Below are positions 52,664 through 63,182 of a stretch of DNA of 64,000 nt, one piece after another; the first letter of the stretch is position 1, and each line of letters starts with the position of its first letter. Source of the stretch: Adhaeribacter arboris. Lineage in GTDB: Bacteria > Bacteroidota > Bacteroidia > Cytophagales > Hymenobacteraceae. The notes under the pieces were generated by a model. It saw only the letters and a program-made list of their open reading frames with translations. It made no database searches and was not told the origin of the DNA. The position numbers and the translations under genes are program-made. The stretch is from the NCBI RefSeq assembly GCF_003023845.1, contig NZ_PYFT01000001.1, positions 1,302,001 through 1,366,000 of the forward strand, given 5' to 3'.

Positions 52664-54190
52664 TTACTTATGAAGTACCATTTTCTTGGTGTCCACCCGT
52701 TCATTTTCTACCAGTAGCGAGTAGTAATAAATACCCGGAGTAAATTGACCGCCTTCAATTTGTAACTGACCATTTCCGTTGGCCGCCACCGGATAGGTTT
52801 TAACAATTTTGCCGTTGAAATCGGTGATTTCAATAACCGCACTACCGGCTTTTTGCGGCACATAATAGTGAATGGAGGTAGTTTGAGTAAAAGGATTAGG
52901 CGCATTTTGGGTAAGCACGGCCAGATTAGTATCCGCACTCTTTTGGGCGGAACCCGTATTACCCGGTAGCGATCGGGCGCCTAAAAGCTGATTTACCTGG
53001 GCGGTGAGCTTTTCTATTTGCTGGTCCTGGAGGGTTATTTTCTCCTCTTGTTCCTGGACCGCTTTTACCAGGATAGGAATGAGCCCGGTATAGTTTAAGG
53101 CTTTAAATTCAATAATTTCCGATTTAATTTGCGGTTGCCGCACGATATTTCCTTTCGCATCCACCTTGGACGGCAATGCTTCCAGGGCAGTATCAAACTT
53201 GGTATTCTTTACCAGGCCGGGCAGTACTTTTTCAACTTCTTGGGCCAGCAGGCCGTACTGTTCTTCGGTCGGCAATTTTAATAGTTTGTAAGCGCCATCC
53301 TGGCGGTATTGGTATTTCTTTGGGTGCAGCTGATTTATAATGCCCAAGGCGCTGGTAAAATCCTGGATATTTTGTTTTAGCTTTTGGTCGGAACTGGAAT
53401 AATAGCCGCCATTTACAAATATACTTTTGTTAAAATAGGCAGCATAGGTAGCGTGGGTAGTAGTAGCATACAAACCATAATTCGTGGACGAGGACCCAAA
53501 TAATCCGAGCCCCGATTGACTAAATGCCGAAACTCCAGTGCCGCTACCGCCGTGACTTCCTTCCACTCCTGCGGTTCCCGCTTGCCCGTTTTGAGCATGC
53601 CCCGACACACCGCTGCCATAAAGAGAGGCATACCCCACAATGCCGCTGCCTGGTCCGTCGGTAACGCCCATGATAGTAGCGCTTGAAAAAATGGCGGATA
53701 AATTACGAACATACACGGCGTTACCATAACCTGATTTTTCGCTGTACAAGGCAGAAGCGTTTACCGGATCTTTTACAAAAATACCCCCGCTGCCAATAGC
53801 TACCGCGCCCCCTTTAAAATTTAAATTAAGGGTATCCGCCACTCCGTTCTTTCGTGCCTGTATCTTATTAAAATCAAAGGCAAGATTATTGGATTTAAGC
53901 GAACCTATTAAAAAGTTGTCCGTGGTAGAAAGCGAAACATTGCCTCTAGAAGGTATATGCAGGAGCGCTTGGGGGGAAATAATGCCGATTCCTACAAAAC
54001 CATTACCGAGTATACGCATGCGTTCCCGGTTATTGGTCCGGAAGACAAGTGATCTATCATCTTTGGTACCAATAAAGTTTGAGGCGGGATTGGTGCCCGT
54101 ATTACCCGTAAGCGACCAATTCTGGGCTTGAGCGGATAGGGTAGCTGCGCCAAACAGGATAGCAGCTATAATTATATTTCTGTTTTTCAT
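52664..54190 (-). CDS. Tail-fiber-type (peptidase S74) protein with T9SS sorting domain
   Basis: A 508-residue secreted protein. A signal peptide (IIIAAILFGAATLSAQAQ) is followed by beta-rich fiber-like repeats. A peptidase S74 intramolecular chaperone domain comes next (from about residue 265: YYSSSDQKLKQNIQDFTSAL, HPKKYQYRQDGAYKLL, EEQYGLLAQEVEKVLPGLVK), then a coiled coil (KITLQDQQIEKLTAQVNQLL). The C-terminal 75 residues, starting NAPNPFTQTTSIHYYVPQ and ending MVLHK, are a T9SS type A sorting domain. S74 domains trimerise fibers and then cleave themselves off; here the cut would release or expose the C-terminal part. Together with T9SS targeting this suggests a surface-attached trimeric fiber. 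Confidence 0.88.
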   Translation of the reverse strand: MKNRNIIIAAILFGAATLSAQAQNWSLTGNTGTNPASNFIGTKDDRSLVFRTNNRERMRILGNGFVGIGIISPQALLHIPSRGNVSLSTTDNFLIGSLKSNNLAFDFNKIQARKNGVADTLNLNFKGGAVAIGSGGIFVKDPVNASALYSEKSGYGNAVYVRNLSAIFSSATIMGVTDGPGSGIVGYASLYGSGVSGHAQNGQAGTAGVEGSHGGSGTGVSAFSQSGLGLFGSSSTNYGLYATTTHATYAAYFNKSIFVNGGYYSSSDQKLKQNIQDFTSALGIINQLHPKKYQYRQDGAYKLLKLPTEEQYGLLAQEVEKVLPGLVKNTKFDTALEALPSKVDAKGNIVRQPQIKSEIIEFKALNYTGLIPILVKAVQEQEEKITLQDQQIEKLTAQVNQLLGARSLPGNTGSAQKSADTNLAVLTQNAPNPFTQTTSIHYYVPQKAGSAVIEITDFNGKIVKTYPVAANGNGQLQIEGGQFTPGIYYYSLLVENERVDTKKMVLHK

Positions 54191-54373: not shown

Positions 54374-57300
54374 CTATTTAACTAAAATAACTTTTTGAAC
54401 GGTTACCGCGTGGGAAGTACTTAGCCGGAGGATATAGATACCCCCTTTTTCGGAAGTAATTTGCCAGCTCAATTCATACTTTTTGCCGACTTCTACTGTT
54501 CCTTTAAACAAGGTTTTTACTTCCGTACCCTGATTATCGTACACCTTAAGGTTAACTAATCCGGTTGTTTCCGGGGTAAAATCAATAGAAAGTTTATCCG
54601 TGAAAGGGTTGGGATACGTATTTAGGCGAAGGGTTTGTTTTACCGGCCCTTGTTCCGGCGCTAAGGTTGGTTCCACTTCTGAGATAGCTTCCGCTGGTGG
54701 CGCTATGGCTCCACCTGTAGGCGATACTTTTACCAGCCAGTAATCCGTGCCTCCCTGAGTCGGTTGGGTTCTATCACCCGAAAGATCCGATTCTGATCTA
54801 CCCCCGAGCAAATATCCGCCATCTGTTGTCTGCACCACGGAACGTAAGTTATCATCGGCATTGCCGCCAAAACGCTTGTCCCATTGTTTAGTACCGCTGT
54901 TATTAGTTTTTACAATCCAGTAATCGTAGCCGCCCTGACTGCCTTGTGATTTATCGCCGCTGTTGCCGGAGTTGGAACGGCCACCTAATAAGTAACCGCC
55001 ATCGTTCGTTTGAATGAGGGACTGAAGTTCTTCCACATCGGTGCCGCCAAAGCGTTTATCCCATAATTTGGTGCCGCTGCTGTTCATCTTCACGAGCCAG
55101 TAATCGGTACCGCCCTGGTTGGTTTGCGAATGATCGCCGCTGGCGTATGATCCGGAAGTACCCCCTACTAAGTAGTTACCATCGGAAGTACGAATTAGCG
55201 TTTGTAAGTCATCGTTTAAGCTGCCACCAAAGCGTTTGTCCCATTGCTTCGCCCCATTCGCATTAATCTTAATAACCCAGTAATCTCTACCACCCCGCGA
55301 AGGTTGGGTTTTATCGCCATTTTGTCCCGAAGTGGAGCGGCCACCGAGCAACAAACTGCCATCGGTATTTAGCACGGCGGCTTCTAACCAATCGTCGCCG
55401 GTGCCACCATAACGCTTGTCCCAGATTTTGTTACCGGTGCTGCTGATTTTAACTACCCAGTAGTCGGTGGCTCCCCAGTTTTCTACGGTTTTATCGCCAT
55501 TGTCCCCGGATAAGGAATGACCCGCCAGAATGTAATCGCCATTGGATAATTGAATTAAAGCGCGTAGATCATCATCTAAAGTACCGCCGAAACGTTTGTC
55601 CCACTGTTTCACCCCGTTGGCATTGACCTTGACTACCCAGTAGTCTTTATTTCCCCGGGAACCTTGGCTTTTATCACCCGCTATCACCGAAACGGAGTTA
55701 CCGCCCAGTAAGTATCCGCCATCGGCCGTAGCAATTAAAGCATTCAGGTTGTCATCGTCGTCGCCGCCAAAGCGTTTGTCCCATTGTTTGTTGCCCAAAG
55801 CATCGGTTTTCACCAGCCAGTAGTCGTTGCCGCCACGGCTGCCCTGGGTTTTATCGCCGCTGACCGAGGAAGGAGAATGACCACCCAGTAAATAGCCGCC
55901 ATCCTTGGTCCGAATGACCCGGGTGAAGTTATCCGTACCAGAGCCGCCAAAGCGTTTATTCCACTGCGAAGAAGCTACCACCGAATTAGCAATGGTAATA
56001 GTATAATCTTCCACTTCGCCGTTGGCAAAATCCGAACAAGCATCGGTACTCGTTACTAAGGTATTATACTTGCTCATTACCCGTAGCCGGCGTTGTCCGG
56101 TAGAAACAGTAGCCGGAATGGTAACAGTAGTACTAAAGAGCTCCGAACTAGCAGTAGGAGAAGCATACACAAATTCTCCGGCATCGTCGAAATCCTGGTC
56201 GTTGTTGTAGTCAATCCAAACCCCGAAGCCTTGCGGAAAAGAACCCGCCTGCACTTTCAGGGAAAATCTTTTTCCTTTAACCACGGTAGTGGTATTCGAA
56301 CCCGTAGCCGGAAAATTGGTATAACCGCCAATTATTCCATCGCAGCCCGATTCGTTGTGCACCAAAGTGTTAAAGCTGAAATTATTAATGTAATCGCCTT
56401 GCTGACAGTTAAGGGTTGGGACACAATAGCCAATAGCCACAGTATAATCTTCGGTTTCGCCCACATTAAAGGTGGTACAAGATTCATTGGCGGCAGGCAC
56501 CGCAAAATATTTGGTTCGTACCCGCATCCGCCGTAAACCGGTCGAAGCATTGGTTGGCACCGTTACCGTTCCGGTAAATACATTTTTGCCGGCCGAAGGA
56601 GATTTATAGACAAATTCGCCGGTATCGTTAAAATCTCCGTCATCGTTGTAATCAATCCACACCCCAAAGCCTTGCGACAGGTTTGGTCCACCTTGCAGGC
56701 TGATAGAATAACTCTGCCCTTTTAAGAGGCGGGTGGTATTGGTCCCTACCGGCTCATAGTTAATATAGTTGGCGGTTTGCCCGTTGCAGCCCGAATTATT
56801 ATTGATAAGGGTATTGAGGCTAAAATTATGAATAAAATCGCCGGAAGAACAAGGATTTTGGATAGCCGGTATACAGTAAGCGGATATGATCCATTGAAAA
56901 GGGCTGGTGCCGGTGCCGGCGGCATTGCTCACCTGGATGTATCCCGAACCCGCTCCAGCCGGCGATTTGGCCATAATGGTAGTTTCGTTCACGACGGTAA
57001 ACTCTGCGCTAACCCCGTTAAAAGTAACCGAACCAGCGCCCAGGAAATTTTTACCAATGATTTTTACGCTGGTACCCACTGGTCCGCCAACCGGTTCAAA
57101 ACCGTAGACAAGCGGTAAGCCCTGAATAAATTGTAAAGCTCGATAAGCATTCACCCGGCCGTATCCCATTTCATTGTTCCAGGTACCGTACGGGTGACCA
57201 GCGAGCGTTAAATATTCATAACCGCCTACTTTTTCGGCTGATTTTTGAAGGGCAATGGTATAATTAAGCGCGCTGTACTCCGGACGAAGGGAAGCCATTA

Positions 57301-58729
57301 ATCCTACTACCCCTGCTGCAATAGGGCAAGCGGCCGATGTACCATCGAACAGGGTGTAATCGTCGTTGACGTACCCGGATAATCCGCTCCGGTCGGTGGT
57401 AATGGTACTAACACCAGGAGCTACAATATCCACGTATCCCCCGTAATTAGAAAAACTGGCTCTTTTATCACTTACATTGGTGGCTCCGACACCTACCACG
57501 AATTCATAATTGGCCGGGTATAAGATAGGCGTATTTTTATTATCGTTGCCGGTTGAGCCCAGGATTACCGCACCCAGGCCTCCCCGACTGTTGTAGTGCA
57601 TGGCCGAAAAACTAGCTTCTACGGTAGCAGCAAAATCATTTGAGCCGAACGTGTAACTATTACTCACCGCGACTACTCCGGGGGTATTGATAATCCGCGA
57701 GGCAGCCCGGGCGATAATGTCGGCATTGGTATACCACCGGCCATTGGGTTCCACGTTGTAGCCCATCATTACTGGCATTACCTTTATATTGTTACCCACA
57801 CTGGAACCACCAATCCGATTGTTGGTGGCACCGGCAATTAAACCGGCGCAGGGAGTACCGTGATTGGCGTACTCATTCTGGGGCAAAGGAGAATTATCAT
57901 CATTGGAGGCATCGTAAGGATTCACTATTTGCCCAGCCATGTCCGGATGGGTTAGGTCATAGCCGTGCCCGTCAATTACAGCTACCACTACCGAAGAAGA
58001 ACCGGCAGTAATGTCCCAGGCTTCCGGGGCATCAATGTCGGCGTCCGAGTCCTGACTGAGGAACCACTGCGAAGGATAGAAAAAATCGTTAGGAAGATAG
58101 TCGGAATGGCCCGAGAACGTAAAATCCGGCTCGGCGTATTCTACCTGGCCGCTTTCAAACAATTTATTCGCCACTCTAAAAACATCCTCTCCTTTTTCAA
58201 TGGCAGCTACGTATATTTTTCGGTCTCCTAAGTCAATTTCTGCTACCAGAGCGGTTTTATGATTATTCAGAAAGGTTTTGACCTGTGCCGGGTTATGGCC
58301 TTTTTTAATTGTGTAGATTATTTTATTGCCGACGTATACTGTTTCTTTCCCGATTTTAAACGCGGGATAAGCCGTAATTACGTCCGGATTACTGGTAAAT
58401 TGTTTCGTAAGGACTGGTACCGCACCGGTCATGGCTTTATTCTGGGAATTTATTCGGTACCGAACTGCATTTACCGGCGCAAATACATCTTCCTGCTGAA
58501 CTTTTGTTACCTGGTTTTGTAGTTGATTGGCAAAAGTTTTTCCTTTGGCAAGATTCACTTTAGAGGCAAAGGATACAAAAACTTCGTTTGTTTGGGGAGT
58601 CAAAAGTACTTTTTTACCTTTTCGGTAATAGGCATACTCAACCGGGTCAGTGAGTTTAGGTTGTGCAACGGCGGTAAAACACAGCAGTAAAAAGCACCAG
58701 AAGGTAGTAGTAAAATTAGTGATTTTCAT
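54374..58729 (-). CDS. S8 subtilase with IPT, two GEVED, seven-repeat cassette and T9SS tail
   Basis: A 1451-residue secreted serine protease. Order: signal peptide 1-22; propeptide-like region to about 210; S8 domain with Asp253 (VVVAVIDGHGYD), His290 (NEYANHGTPCAGL) and Ser465 (FDGTSAACPIAAG); IPT/TIG domain (543-615); GEVED domains (about 620-765 and 770-915), each with QGFGVWIDYN and ending GETEDYT or GEVEDYT. Seven tandem 60-residue repeats follow (about 923-1342), each opening W[DN]KR[FY]GG and carrying GGYLLGG, GDKxQ and DYWxVK. The last 90 residues are a T9SS type A sorting domain (NTYPNPFTDKL to VILVK). Seven repeats with this strand pattern suggest a seven-bladed beta-propeller. The same cassette occurs on the M6 protease encoded upstream. 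Confidence 0.92.
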   Translation of the reverse strand: MKITNFTTTFWCFLLLCFTAVAQPKLTDPVEYAYYRKGKKVLLTPQTNEVFVSFASKVNLAKGKTFANQLQNQVTKVQQEDVFAPVNAVRYRINSQNKAMTGAVPVLTKQFTSNPDVITAYPAFKIGKETVYVGNKIIYTIKKGHNPAQVKTFLNNHKTALVAEIDLGDRKIYVAAIEKGEDVFRVANKLFESGQVEYAEPDFTFSGHSDYLPNDFFYPSQWFLSQDSDADIDAPEAWDITAGSSSVVVAVIDGHGYDLTHPDMAGQIVNPYDASNDDNSPLPQNEYANHGTPCAGLIAGATNNRIGGSSVGNNIKVMPVMMGYNVEPNGRWYTNADIIARAASRIINTPGVVAVSNSYTFGSNDFAATVEASFSAMHYNSRGGLGAVILGSTGNDNKNTPILYPANYEFVVGVGATNVSDKRASFSNYGGYVDIVAPGVSTITTDRSGLSGYVNDDYTLFDGTSAACPIAAGVVGLMASLRPEYSALNYTIALQKSAEKVGGYEYLTLAGHPYGTWNNEMGYGRVNAYRALQFIQGLPLVYGFEPVGGPVGTSVKIIGKNFLGAGSVTFNGVSAEFTVVNETTIMAKSPAGAGSGYIQVSNAAGTGTSPFQWIISAYCIPAIQNPCSSGDFIHNFSLNTLINNNSGCNGQTANYINYEPVGTNTTRLLKGQSYSISLQGGPNLSQGFGVWIDYNDDGDFNDTGEFVYKSPSAGKNVFTGTVTVPTNASTGLRRMRVRTKYFAVPAANESCTTFNVGETEDYTVAIGYCVPTLNCQQGDYINNFSFNTLVHNESGCDGIIGGYTNFPATGSNTTTVVKGKRFSLKVQAGSFPQGFGVWIDYNNDQDFDDAGEFVYASPTASSELFSTTVTIPATVSTGQRRLRVMSKYNTLVTSTDACSDFANGEVEDYTITIANSVVASSQWNKRFGGSGTDNFTRVIRTKDGGYLLGGHSPSSVSGDKTQGSRGGNDYWLVKTDALGNKQWDKRFGGDDDDNLNALIATADGGYLLGGNSVSVIAGDKSQGSRGNKDYWVVKVNANGVKQWDKRFGGTLDDDLRALIQLSNGDYILAGHSLSGDNGDKTVENWGATDYWVVKISSTGNKIWDKRYGGTGDDWLEAAVLNTDGSLLLGGRSTSGQNGDKTQPSRGGRDYWVIKINANGAKQWDKRFGGSLNDDLQTLIRTSDGNYLVGGTSGSYASGDHSQTNQGGTDYWLVKMNSSGTKLWDKRFGGTDVEELQSLIQTNDGGYLLGGRSNSGNSGDKSQGSQGGYDYWIVKTNNSGTKQWDKRFGGNADDNLRSVVQTTDGGYLLGGRSESDLSGDRTQPTQGGTDYWLVKVSPTGGAIAPPAEAISEVEPTLAPEQGPVKQTLRLNTYPNPFTDKLSIDFTPETTGLVNLKVYDNQGTEVKTLFKGTVEVGKKYELSWQITSEKGGIYILRLSTSHAVTVQKVILVK

Positions 58730-59078
58730 GTTTGATTTAAGAAATTAATTAATTGTTAGAAGGATTTTGAAGTTGTATTCCGGCGGAGTACATTTTTATT
58801 TGGCGGTGTGAAACTACCAATCAAGGCTATCCCGCCGGATTAATTTTTACCAGTTAAACAAAGGCCTTTGCTGCTGATTTACAGATTAGTAGCTAACCTG
58901 AGAAAAAGGTTAGCAGGAAAAAGTAAAAAAATTTACTAATGGTAGAAAAGGTTAGAAGGGCGTACGTTTAAAGCCAGGTACACTTAATTAGCCTTAAAAG
59001 TAGGCCTTAATTTAAAAGGTAGAAGATGGTGAAAAAGCCTTAATTGCTCTCCCACCATCTTCCGTAGAGCCCTCTTTA
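58730..59078. other. Intergenic region between the two protease genes
   Basis: About 350 bp without a reading frame. It contains the 10-bp inverted repeat at 59022-59062 near the M6 stop and must contain the promoter of the subtilase gene. No other structure was noticed. Confidence 0.45.
59022..59062. repeat. Perfect 10-bp hairpin after M6 protease gene
   Basis: GAAGATGGTG (59022-59031) and CACCATCTTC (59053-59062) are exact inverted copies with a 21-base loop, starting 17 bases past the M6 gene stop on the minus strand. No clean U-tract follows. Confidence 0.6.
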
Positions 59079-62000
59079 TTATTTTCTCAGGATAACTTTT
59101 TGGTAGGCTGTTGTGCTCGGCGAAACGAGTCTCACCACATACAAATCGGCTTTTTCGGAAGTAACCGGCCAGATTAATTCCATCTTTTTACCCGCTTCCA
59201 CCTGGCCTTTCCACAAAACTTTTACCTCAACCCCTTGGCTGTTGTAAACCTTCACGGTAACAGATTCGGTTTTGAGTGGATGAAAGCGAATGGTAAGTTT
59301 ATTTGAGAAGGGATTGGGAAAAGTTTCTAACCGGAATACTTCTTTCTCTGGCGCCTGCTTGATCAACAAGTCTTGTTTTGGCTCCTCCTGGATACTGGCT
59401 GTGGTAGTAGGCACAATGGCTGCCCCGAAGGATGACACTTTAACCAACCAATAATCTACGAGTCCTTGGGAGGGTTGGGTCTTTTCACCCGAGACTCCGG
59501 ATTTGGAACGGCCGGCTAACACATAATTGCCATAAACGTTTGGTAGTCCGCTTCGTATGTCTTCTTCCAGTAGGGTACGTAAGTCTTCCTCGGCATTGCC
59601 GCCAAAGCGCTGATCCCATTGCTTGGTACCGGTACTGGTGGTTTTCACCATCCAAAAATCATAATCACCTCGGCTACTTTGCGTTTTATCCCCATTGATG
59701 CCCGAATCTGACCTTCCGCCTAACAGGTAACCGCCATCGGCAGTGGCAATAAGCGTTTGCAACTCATCCGACGCGCTGCCCCCGAAGCGTTTATCCCACA
59801 ATTTGGCGCCACTGTTATTAATTGTAATTATCCAGAAGTCGTTCTCGCCCCGACTGCCTTGGGATTTATCGCCGTTTGCGGCCGAGGCCGAGGTACCCCC
59901 TAACAAGTAGTTGCCCTCCGAAGTACGGGTTAAAGCTTGCAGATCATCATCCCCGCTGCCGCCATAGCGTTTGTCCCATTGTTTTACGCCGTTGGCGTTT
60001 ATCTTCACCAACCAGTAGTCTCTTCCACCCCGCGAAGCTTGCGATTTATCGCCATTTTGGCCGGAAGCCGAGCGTCCGCCTAGTAACATGCTACCATCGG
60101 TATTCAGCAGAGTAGCTTCTAACCAATCTTCGCCGGAGCCCCCAAACCGTTTGTCCCAAAGTTTAGTACCCGCGCTATTAATTTTCACTACCCAGTAATC
60201 GCTTCCTCCTCTGGAGGCTTCGGTTTTATCGCCACTGGTGCCGGAGGCCGAATAACCCGCCAGCATATAGTCTCCACTAGGCAATTGTACCAAGGCCCGT
60301 AAGTCATCCTCCCCGGTGCCACCAAAGCGTTTATCCCACTGTTTTACCCCATTAGCATTTATTTTTACTACCCAGTAGTCCTTGCCGCCGCGGGAAGCTT
60401 GCGATTTGTCGCCGGATTTACCCGACAAAGAATTGCCGCCGAGTAAGTAGCCGCCATCGTTGGTAGCAATGAGAGCGTTCAAAAAATCATCTTCCTGGCC
60501 GCCATAGCGTTTATCCCAAAGTTTGTTGCCATCCCCATCCGTTTTCACCAGCCAGAAATCCTTGCGCCCTTGAGTGCCCTGACTTTTATCCCCGCTGGTG
60601 GGCGAAGAAGAATGACCCGCTAGTAAGTAGCCGAAATCCGCCGTCCGGATCATCCGGGAAAAGACATCGGCGCCAGAGCCGCCAAACCGCTTGTTCCACT
60701 TAGTAAGGGATACTTCGCCATCCTTAATGGTAATCGTATAATCTTGCGTTTCGCCATACTCAAATGGGTAGCACGATTGCTCCTTTGTCATAACAGCCCC
60801 ATTCCGACTTCTTACCCGCAAGCGTTTCTGACCGGGAGAAATATTGACCGGAATGGTAATTGTTCCCTTAAACACTCCCGTTCCGGAGGCAGGCGAACGG
60901 TACACAAATTCTCCGGCATCATCGAAATCCTGGTCGTTGTTATAATCTATCCATACACCGAAATTTTGGGCTTTCGGGCCGGATTGCAGGCTGATGGGAT
61001 AACTCTGGCCCAGGTTTACGGAAGTGGTGTAGAAGAAAGGAGTTAAATTGGAGTAATTTCTTGGGTAATCATAACAGCCGTGGTTCTCGTGCACCAGAGT
61101 GTTAAAACTAAAATCATCAATATAATCGCCGGAAGAGCAAGAGTGGGCATATACCGGTACACAGTAATCAATTTCAATTGTGTAGTCTTCGGTTTCCCCG
61201 CTGGCAGCAAAAATTTTATTAGCTTCTAAAGCCGTAGGAACATAATCATAAACGCTCCTTACCCGCAGTCGTTTTATACCCGTAGATATATTCTGAGGAA
61301 TAGTTATGGTTCCGGTGAATACTCCGGTTCCGGCTACGGCCGAGCTGTAGACAAATTCCTCCGGGTCATCAAAAACCTTATTTTCATTATAATCAATCCA
61401 GACACCAAAGCCCTGGGGTCTGGGTCCGGATTGCAAACTAATGGTATAGGTTTGGCCCCGGTGAACCTGGGTGGTTTTACTACCAGTTGGTTCGTGATTG
61501 ATGTAGTTGTTAGCTAAACCGTTGCAACCGGAAGAGTTATTTACCAAAGTATTCAGGCTGAAATTATTGATATAATCGTTAGTGCTGCAATAGGGATAAG
61601 AAAGCGGAAAATCATAGCCGCCCGAAGACAGAACGTCGCCGACGGTAAATAATGCTTTGTATTGAGAAGGAGAGCCGGGTTCGAACACGGAAATACCATG
61701 AATATTAATACCCGTGCTGGCGTTGGTATACGTTCTGGAATTGGGATAAGTAGCATCGTTAAACGCGGTTTTATTACCCGAACCGGGAAAAAGATCGCCC
61801 GCATCACCCCGATTAATCCTGTTGTCTAAATCATTCCGGCCATCTGCTTCTTCTAAATCCACCATTTTCATGTTTTCGTTGGCATTACCTGACTGGCCGG
61901 ATAAGTTAGAGTTAACATGGTAAATGGCCAGGCCACTGCCTCTTAGTCCAACATCCAAGTTTAATTTTTGGCGGTTTTCTATTAAAAAATATTCGTTGGG

Positions 62001-63182
62001 TAAAGCAGTAGGAATCTTATAACCTATGCTGCCAAAATACAAAGAGTAGTTGCCCGGCCGGCTAATTTCCCAAGGTGTCATCCACCCGAGCGTTGTTCTC
62101 GACCAGGCACAAAAATTTCCGGGAGTATGCTCGTCGCCTAGCCAGGCGGCACCCGCCATTAACGACCATTCTCCTAAACCTTCCGAACTACCATCTATAT
62201 CGTATAAATCGGGTAACCCGAGGAGATGGCCAAATTCGTGGCAGAATATTCCCCGGCCTACAATATCATTGGTATAAATTCTTCTTTCCGGATTAATTAT
62301 ATAATCGTCAATCCATACACCATCATACTTTACCTGATTGTTTCCCGCCGATAATACCCACCGGTGCGACCAGATATATTGTAATTGGGAACCTTCTTCT
62401 GCGCCCGGGCCGGCATGAGCCACCATAATTCCGTCCACGTTACCATCTTTGTCATTATCGTATTTAGAAAAATCTACTCCTGCTAACTGGGCGGCATCTA
62501 CGGCTTCCCTTATTAGGGCAGTGGCTCGTTGGTCACCATTTTGGCGGCCATAATACTCGTAATTATGGCCAGCAGTATACCATCCCACTACGTCGGTGTC
62601 TACCAGCAAACTTCCTACGGAACTACTGTAATAAAAATCCCGGAAACTACCAATACCCTTGAATTGGGGATGGTTCATCAGGTTTTCGAAAAAGAAATGG
62701 TTGTAGGTGTTGGGGAGGTCTGGATATTGAATTAGAATAAGAAGGGCTTTTCTTTGACCTGTTACCGGAAAGCCCGCTTTTTGCGGTCCGGATATTGTTT
62801 GTTTGGATTCAAAAAAGGCCGGTGTATTGGCTTTAGCCGGAGCATCGGGTTTAATAGATTTCACCACTTTTTGCAGAAAGGCAGCATCGGCAGGTTTTCG
62901 ATCGCCGGCATTTCTGGCCACTATGCCCGTAGGCACCAGTTTGCCTTTTACTTTATTAGCATATTCGTAGTTGCCGTTTTTATGAACGAGCGTATACCCG
63001 TCTACCGTCTCGGTCCAGGAATTTAACAAATTACCTTTGCCAATAATCGTCAGGGAGGAGCCATCGGCTTGTTTCACGGTAATAGGATACGGTGAAGCCT
63101 GGCAGTTAGAAATTTGCTGAGCCGATACCGGTATCCGCAGCAGAATTAAAAACAGCCAAATAGTAGAAATTTTAATTTTCAT
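59079..63182 (-). CDS. M6 metalloprotease with two GEVED, seven-repeat cassette and T9SS tail
   Basis: A 1367-residue secreted zinc protease. Order: signal peptide 1-22; prodomain; M6 (immune-inhibitor-A-like) catalytic domain with KALLILIQYPD, DFYYSSSVGSLLVDTDVVGW and the zinc motif HEFGH at 315-319 followed by LLGLPDLYD. Two GEVED domains lie at about 520-650 and 650-790 (QGFGVWIDYN and QNFGVWIDYN), then seven repeats of about 60 residues with WDKRFGG, GDKSQ, GGKDYWVVK, and a T9SS sorting domain (ETFPNPFSNKL to VILRK). The seventh repeat has an insertion of about eight residues. Position by position, the repeats resemble those of the subtilase encoded downstream more than each other, so the whole array was duplicated as a unit. 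The two catalytic domains are unrelated. Confidence 0.92.
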   Translation of the reverse strand: MKIKISTIWLFLILLRIPVSAQQISNCQASPYPITVKQADGSSLTIIGKGNLLNSWTETVDGYTLVHKNGNYEYANKVKGKLVPTGIVARNAGDRKPADAAFLQKVVKSIKPDAPAKANTPAFFESKQTISGPQKAGFPVTGQRKALLILIQYPDLPNTYNHFFFENLMNHPQFKGIGSFRDFYYSSSVGSLLVDTDVVGWYTAGHNYEYYGRQNGDQRATALIREAVDAAQLAGVDFSKYDNDKDGNVDGIMVAHAGPGAEEGSQLQYIWSHRWVLSAGNNQVKYDGVWIDDYIINPERRIYTNDIVGRGIFCHEFGHLLGLPDLYDIDGSSEGLGEWSLMAGAAWLGDEHTPGNFCAWSRTTLGWMTPWEISRPGNYSLYFGSIGYKIPTALPNEYFLIENRQKLNLDVGLRGSGLAIYHVNSNLSGQSGNANENMKMVDLEEADGRNDLDNRINRGDAGDLFPGSGNKTAFNDATYPNSRTYTNASTGINIHGISVFEPGSPSQYKALFTVGDVLSSGGYDFPLSYPYCSTNDYINNFSLNTLVNNSSGCNGLANNYINHEPTGSKTTQVHRGQTYTISLQSGPRPQGFGVWIDYNENKVFDDPEEFVYSSAVAGTGVFTGTITIPQNISTGIKRLRVRSVYDYVPTALEANKIFAASGETEDYTIEIDYCVPVYAHSCSSGDYIDDFSFNTLVHENHGCYDYPRNYSNLTPFFYTTSVNLGQSYPISLQSGPKAQNFGVWIDYNNDQDFDDAGEFVYRSPASGTGVFKGTITIPVNISPGQKRLRVRSRNGAVMTKEQSCYPFEYGETQDYTITIKDGEVSLTKWNKRFGGSGADVFSRMIRTADFGYLLAGHSSSPTSGDKSQGTQGRKDFWLVKTDGDGNKLWDKRYGGQEDDFLNALIATNDGGYLLGGNSLSGKSGDKSQASRGGKDYWVVKINANGVKQWDKRFGGTGEDDLRALVQLPSGDYMLAGYSASGTSGDKTEASRGGSDYWVVKINSAGTKLWDKRFGGSGEDWLEATLLNTDGSMLLGGRSASGQNGDKSQASRGGRDYWLVKINANGVKQWDKRYGGSGDDDLQALTRTSEGNYLLGGTSASAANGDKSQGSRGENDFWIITINNSGAKLWDKRFGGSASDELQTLIATADGGYLLGGRSDSGINGDKTQSSRGDYDFWMVKTTSTGTKQWDQRFGGNAEEDLRTLLEEDIRSGLPNVYGNYVLAGRSKSGVSGEKTQPSQGLVDYWLVKVSSFGAAIVPTTTASIQEEPKQDLLIKQAPEKEVFRLETFPNPFSNKLTIRFHPLKTESVTVKVYNSQGVEVKVLWKGQVEAGKKMELIWPVTSEKADLYVVRLVSPSTTAYQKVILRK

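Follow-up and report, generated by a model that had tools for sequence, protein, structure and literature searches.

Why should two neighbouring protease genes with unrelated catalytic domains encode the same series of C-terminal domains, and did this series pass between them as one piece? The question is raised by an S8 subtilase gene and an M6 metalloprotease gene of Adhaeribacter arboris, which lie next to each other in a stretch of 64,000 nucleotides (contig NZ_PYFT01000001.1, positions 1,302,001 to 1,366,000; hereafter the window). Both proteins continue into two GEVED domains, seven repeats predicted to form a ß-propeller, and a type A tail of the type IX secretion system (T9SS). In trees of the single domains, GEVED domains group by protease from one bacterial family to another, and propellers do not. 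It is somewhat probable, in our view, that the shared C-terminus is a chassis for surface delivery, consisting of a propeller like that of CylK and the T9SS tail, and that the propeller has been exchanged between neighbouring protease genes.

The two open reading frames (ORFs) lie where the earlier note had placed them and, as it had held, their catalytic domains are nonhomologous, the S8 and M6 peptidases being unrelated families. Their features are as follows (aa, amino acids).

54374–58729, minus strand: S8 subtilase gene, 1451 aa (PF00082, 125.2 bits)
57158–57997, minus strand: S8 catalytic domain, aa 245–524 (PF00082; motifs VIDGHG at 251, NHGTPCAG at 289, GTSAACP at 463)
56903–57115, minus strand: TIG domain, aa 539–609, in S8 only (PF01833)
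56438–56668, minus strand: S8 GEVED domain 1 (PF20009, 80.7 bits)
55994–56227, minus strand: S8 GEVED domain 2 (PF20009, 85.1 bits)
54704–55963, minus strand: S8 predicted seven-bladed propeller, 7 x 60 aa, aa 923–1342 (repeats, structure prediction and Foldseek)
54386–54616, minus strand: S8 T9SS type A tail, aa 1372–1448 (PF18962, 35.5 bits; TIGR04183, 32.0 bits)
59079–63182, minus strand: M6 metalloprotease gene, 1367 aa (TIGR03296, 216.3 bits)
61917–62738, minus strand: M6 catalytic domain, aa 149–422, HEFGH at aa 315 (TIGR03296 and motif)
61176–61409, minus strand: M6 GEVED domain 1 (PF20009, 69.8 bits)
60729–60962, minus strand: M6 GEVED domain 2 (PF20009, 75.9 bits)
59415–60698, minus strand: M6 putative seven-bladed propeller, aa 829–1256, with an 8-residue insertion in blade 7 (repeat alignment)
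59091–59321, minus strand: M6 T9SS type A tail, aa 1288–1364 (TIGR04183, 28.2 bits; PF18962, 26.4 bits)

The subtilase was assigned by its PF00082 domain and by the three S8 motifs listed, which we take to be those of the catalytic triad; the M6 protein was assigned by its TIGR03296 score (cut-off 110.8) and an HExxH motif, present as HEFGH. All four GEVED domains score far above the PF20009 cut-off of 24.4 bits. The S8 tail passes the cut-offs of both PF18962 (27) and TIGR04183 (23), while the M6 tail passes the latter and just misses the former.

The common order of the C-terminal parts is borne out by alignment: residues 618–1451 of S8 align with 523–1367 of M6 over 847 columns with 59.7% identity, the tails being 48% identical. 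The repeats number seven in each protein, have a period of 60 residues, and start at S8 923 and M6 829. Repeat n of one protein pairs with repeat n of the other, the identity matrix peaking on the diagonal in 7/7 rows and 7/7 columns (mean identity 0.689 on the diagonal vs 0.535 off it), and none of the 5040 possible orders of the repeats except the actual one attains the observed sum. In a tree of the 14 repeats there is no clustering by protein, as the label for the protein has to change 7 times, which is the maximum; the first outcome that the earlier note gave as refuting its view is therefore absent. Pairs 1, 3, 4 and 7 are resolved in this tree (two of them starred) and pairs 2, 5 and 6 lie on open forks; overall, 2 of the 11 inner branches are starred and 6 are open. 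The earlier note, which describes the C-terminal domains as one shared cassette, had concluded that the array expanded and was then copied as a unit. The tree and the permutation support an array that predates the copy; the copying of everything as one unit is another matter, and for this the histories of the single domains were compared.

Adjacent S8 and M6 propeller genes are found in three genomes: that of the window (G000), another of the same genus (G006), and one of another family (G040). In G040 there are seven such genes, four S8 and three M6, each of them encoding blades; the copies are distinguished here by letters. In the tree of GEVED domains, S8 and M6 are split by gene across bacterial families (support 91/91), the M6 domains of G000, G006 and G040a forming one inner group (100/97) and the five S8 another (100/99). 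Groupings of the propeller type are rejected by this tree, with values of 1.7e-63 and 1.8e-34 in the approximately unbiased (AU) test. M6_G040c, which has no GEVED domain by BLAST, was excluded from it, and forms a misplaced long row in one further analysis. The propellers were placed in three trees. Tree 1 contains the S8 and M6 propellers with 16 others, of which only five, C-terminal propellers of the window's genome, were used in trees 2 and 3; tree 2 covers all seven blades, and tree 3 covers blades 3–7 with M6_G040a added. A clade of S8 propellers is rejected (AU 0.0051 in tree 2 and 2.9e-81 in tree 3), as is one of M6 propellers (2.6e-11 and 8.8e-5). Nor do propellers simply group by genome, as the six G040 propellers of tree 2 do not form a single clade (AU 0.006). 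Within the window's genus, the S8 proteins of G000 and G006 are 78 and 77% identical in their GEVED domains and only 58–73% in their blades.

The clearest case is M6_G040a, whose propeller is nested among those of the S8 proteins of G040 (100/99, tree 3). Its GEVED domains are 55 and 51% identical to those of the adjacent S8_G040a, while blades 1–4 are 96, 96, 92 and 96% identical, and blades 5 and 6 are 72 and 74%. The same step is seen in the DNA: in windows of 60 bases the GEVED part is 45–77% identical, with 55, 57 and 52% in the last three before the propeller, and from the start of the propeller through blade 4 each window is 72–100% identical. Such a jump at the boundary of GEVED2 and blade 1 is as gene conversion would give, and conversion is proposed from the trees and this boundary. 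Since the trees conflict and identity jumps at this boundary, the cassette of GEVED domains, repeats and tail did not move as a unit, and the idea that the whole was copied as one piece is rejected. At the level of sequence, then, the architecture, the number and register of the blades (described below) and the distinct histories of propeller and GEVED domains are established, and neighbouring S8 and M6 genes appear to share propeller sequence beyond the likeness of their GEVED domains, strongly in one relative and moderately in the window's genus.

The earlier note had suggested that seven repeats of this length would close into a propeller, and structure prediction agrees; its second refuting outcome, a structure other than a closed propeller, is thus absent as well, as far as prediction goes. 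An AlphaFold2 model was made for the S8 propeller from an alignment of eight rows, consisting of the two window proteins (M6 entering as an alignment row) and six loci from the viral_contigs set. The predicted chain has 28 strands in seven groups of four, arranged as a seven-bladed ring, with a predicted local distance difference test score (pLDDT) of 75.7, a predicted template modelling score (pTM) of 0.79, and blade blocks mostly at pLDDT 72–93. Foldseek places the model closest to the seven-bladed propeller of CylK (E-value 2.2e-27, query template modelling score (TMq) 0.82, probability 1.00). The Photorhabdus proteins PLL2 and PHL, which are seven-bladed propeller lectins, come next (5.1e-10 and 1.8e-9), followed by other folds; these two are 13 and 12% identical to the S8 propeller, in which nothing points to sugar sites. 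The relationship to CylK extends to sequence, as a profile of 31 C-terminal propellers of the window's genome reaches it at 8.4e-36.

These propellers were collected by searching the window and 20 stretches fetched from its genome with a blade model. As the stretches were chosen from the 150 of 323 candidates that were scored, further carriers may exist and the counts are lower bounds. Blades occur in at least 40 ORFs, and in a permissive search 35 of these have 21 (19 ORFs), 14 (8) or 7 blades (8). In a stricter search the corresponding numbers are 14, 7 and 8 (29/40), with six ORFs at 20 or 13 blades that the permissive search completed to 21 or 14 with blades of about 10–30 bits; one permissive blade, in ORF 3762558, scores only 4 bits. 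Of the remaining five ORFs, four belong to two split genes; the fifth is ORF 2706264, for which the start codon was placed too late and which has three additional blade motifs upstream of it. All five were omitted from the analysis of register. The two genes, split in the assembly, lie at C1:4284144-4288553 and C1:1727849-1731324 (L047 and L051), and one of them contains an in-frame TAG.

With a C-terminal propeller defined as the last seven blades ending within 130 residues of the C-terminus, 31 of the 35 ORFs, S8 included, end in one. PF18962 matches 30 of these 31, the exception (2639493-2644133) having a different, tail-like end. All 30 other C-terminal propellers, M6 among them, are in register with that of S8, vs 9 of 50 propellers elsewhere, which is about the 1 in 7 expected; among themselves, C-terminal propellers are in register in 462 of 465 pairs. 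Among the proteins with 21 blades (19), third propellers are in register in 171/171 comparisons, as against 46 for first and 62 for second propellers; third propellers are also more alike, at 62% vs 52 and 50% for the other two. Because the 30 share its register, the S8/M6 array can be identified, from these alignments, as the tail-proximal member of a large propeller family in the genome, and the idea that it is special to the two proteases has to be given up.

The earlier note had proposed a search for the cassette in other proteins of the genome. It is not confined to proteases: propeller and tail recur in many proteins, some of them with GEVED domains. A Pfam scan of 16 carriers covered 11 with a C-terminal propeller and five with a propeller away from the tail. 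Among the 11, four have GEVED domains and one has FG-GAP and TIG, and the rest show no further Pfam domain over cut-off besides the propeller and tail types; one of the 11 has weak peptidase matches and another a metzincin-like motif. The sequence HExxHxxxxxH, which we take to be such a motif, occurs in two carriers, one of which also has reprolysin-like Pfam matches below cut-off. The five with a non-terminal propeller have PKD (three), TIG (one) or CBM35 (one). The genome encodes SprA (2411.5 bits), the only component of the T9SS machinery that was searched for, and contains 133 matches to T9SS tails at E≤0.001.

How such a chassis would work can be outlined. The seven-bladed propeller directly before the type A tail would carry front ends of several kinds: the subtilase, the M6 protease, the two proteins with metzincin-like motifs, the FG-GAP/TIG protein, or one or two extra propellers, with GEVED domains lying between front end and propeller in some carriers and missing in others. 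As T9SS tail and SprA are both present, the proteins would leave the cell by the T9SS and be placed at the surface. There the GEVED domains may serve as spacers or as weak adhesins. The propeller may attach the enzyme either to the cell surface or to one shared extracellular ligand, and two proteases of different specificity would thereby work at one place. It is the predicted fold and the constraint on the propeller that suggest docking or lectin-like binding; a target shared by the S8 and M6 proteases is possible. Neighbouring S8 and M6 genes would overwrite each other's propeller by gene conversion, with an edge near GEVED2 and blade 1 in G040, and keep their other domains. A further extension seems doubtful to us: that in these bacteria the propeller next to the tail is specialised for docking at the T9SS surface, where it would anchor dozens of different cargos alike. 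Its uniformity would then be due to constraint and gene conversion, and the outer propellers of 21-blade proteins would be diversifying into a repertoire of binders at the surface.

Several observations weigh against an exchanged docking chassis. For the two window genes the contrast is moderate and of older date, with blades 58–80% identical vs 57 and 49% for the GEVED domains, and support for a joint S8 and M6 propeller group in the window's genus varies (94/95, 76/60 and 82/72 in trees 1, 2 and 3). The dispersed copies M6_G040b and c keep a propeller pair of their own (97/96, 96/96 and 91/89 in the same trees), so matching tracks adjacency and not an evident need to match; proximity alone may explain it. 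The propellers of the four S8 copies of G040 resemble one another, and a conversion may therefore have had a donor other than the neighbour: nearest to M6_G040a are S8_G040a in blades 1–4 and S8_G040b and d in blades 5–6. Reading frames are interrupted in both adjacent G040 genes (L107:5007-13888) and in the M6 gene of G006 (L106:5124-9212), which may therefore be decaying or misread. In the AlphaFold2 model the propeller loops that hold GDKSQ are below pLDDT 50, and a longer S8 model with GEVED2 and tail reaches pLDDT 70, GEVED2 itself being below 50 and not confident.

An alternative is passive homogenisation, in which the propeller is a stable spacer without ligand, similar arrays in tandem convert each other, and their matching has no function. 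This is a possibility that we entertain tentatively: the G040 M6 copy beside an S8 gene is homogenised and the dispersed ones are not, and repeat arrays are natural substrates of recombination. Yet the GEVED domains are likewise duplicated and similar (49–58%) and have not been homogenised (the catalytic part of M6_G006 was left out of one comparison behind this statement), and the register kept in 30/30 C-terminal propellers, with the higher likeness of third propellers in 21-blade proteins, suggests constraint on the propeller next to the tail. Separate recruitment of a propeller by each protease from the genome's pool, with likeness due to a common source and not to exchange, is an unlikely account. 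For it speak the 30 in-register copies besides S8 and the open fork on which the three S8/M6 groups lie in the tree with 16 other propellers; but a single clade unites the propellers of S8 and M6 to the exclusion of the five other C-terminal propellers of the genome (100/98), and M6_G040a is closest to its own neighbour in blades 1–4. That the propeller belongs to the catalytic machinery is very unlikely. It is suggested by the closest solved relative, CylK, whose active site is situated where the propeller meets the N-terminal domain (excerpt of PMC8916777), but here proteins that end in this propeller have unrelated enzymes or none that is recognised, and GEVED domains separate the propeller from the protease. 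If the chassis is real, this locus is a natural example of a single module of multidomain proteins being, as it appears, exchanged between unrelated enzymes, with the boundary at a domain edge, and it belongs to a genome-wide set of front ends on a single chassis. It raises the testable questions of whether the propeller beside the T9SS tail serves for docking, and whether cells keep such devices alike through selection or only because neighbouring genes recombine.

The nearest working parallel is provided by the gingipains RgpA and Kgp and the protein HagA of Porphyromonas gingivalis. Gingipains are proteases exported by the T9SS whose modular C-terminal adhesin domains also occur in a protein without protease, and recombination of surface genes has been described (excerpt of PMC5266723). 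As here, modules are common to T9SS proteases and other T9SS surface proteins. The gingipain catalytic domains, however, are of one family (C25), whereas S8 and M6 are unrelated, and the shared gingipain modules are cleaved adhesin domains (CADs) and DUF2436, in place of a propeller whose history can be separated from that of the adjacent GEVED domains. CylK has the same number of blades, belongs to the same sequence family by profile and is the best fold match, but it is a biosynthetic enzyme in which the propeller, with blade-bridging calcium sites, is fused to a calcium-binding domain; the excerpt of PMC8916777 reports neither T9SS tail nor GEVED for it. GEVED was defined in CshA-type fibrillar adhesins and is counted among the stalk domains (excerpt of PMC10952558); the Pfam family is the same, but in the adhesins described there it follows the CshA NR2 ligand domain and here a protease. 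The S8 and M6 repeats also match the LipL53 SBBP-repeat family NF047494, a model of a Leptospira lipoprotein, at 66.7 and 75.3 bits, far under the 400-bit cut-off for equivalogs. Among the matches listed in a literature search on propellers with T9SS or on SBBP repeats, no title describes such an architecture.

Beyond the window's genome, the combination of propeller and tail is common and the protease pair is rare. A profile of propeller plus tail finds at least 33 of 59 genomes at E≤1e-30 and at least 18 of 296 genomes drawn from the phylum at E≤1e-60 (own genome included in these and the following genome counts), the phylum matches outside the window's genome being mostly in ORFs of about 430–620 aa. 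S8 is present in 4 of the 59 genomes (E≤1e-60) and M6 in 6 (E≤1e-10); among 390 genomes of the order each is present in 4 (E≤1e-120). The order sample adds one new carrier of each (L216, L217), with no blades seen in stretches that stop inside the gene. The combination of M6 and propeller was also considered as a widespread protease architecture and was not seen in the sample: 75 loci from the genome_contigs set, mostly metagenome-assembled genomes, several of them short, found with patterns from a five-row M6 alignment and perhaps missing close relatives of the window's genome, contain no ORF with blades and three M6 ORFs with GEVED (by BLAST against the S8 and M6 GEVED domains). In the other seven searched genomes of the G040 family, no match to the M6 GEVED region was found at E≤1e-40. 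Seven loci from IMG/VR (viral_contigs, L200–L206) match the propeller; six of the seven show seven blades and the other is cut by the end of the locus. Their blades are mostly spaced at 47–52 residues in five loci and at 58–64 in L205, and the segment aligned with GDKSQ is mostly absent from L200–L204.

Directly downstream of the S8 gene, the window encodes a T9SS-tailed protein with a Peptidase_S74 domain (52664-54190), which occupies the same place in G006. The genes on both sides of the G006 pair are the same as in G000. In a further relative, G003 (L105), S8 is found with one flanking gene preserved on each side, and the M6 and S74 genes are absent there.

The window's genome also contains tandem clusters of giant T9SS genes on C1, at L042–L045 (2587–2648 kb) and L046–L048 (4261–4302 kb); most genes in both clusters have two or three propellers each, and one has a single propeller. 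The G003 gene L123:482-4972 and C1:2615707-2620218 of G000 encode third propellers that are 82% identical, vs 50 and 44% for the first two, a contrast that again points to mosaic exchange of the propeller next to the tail.

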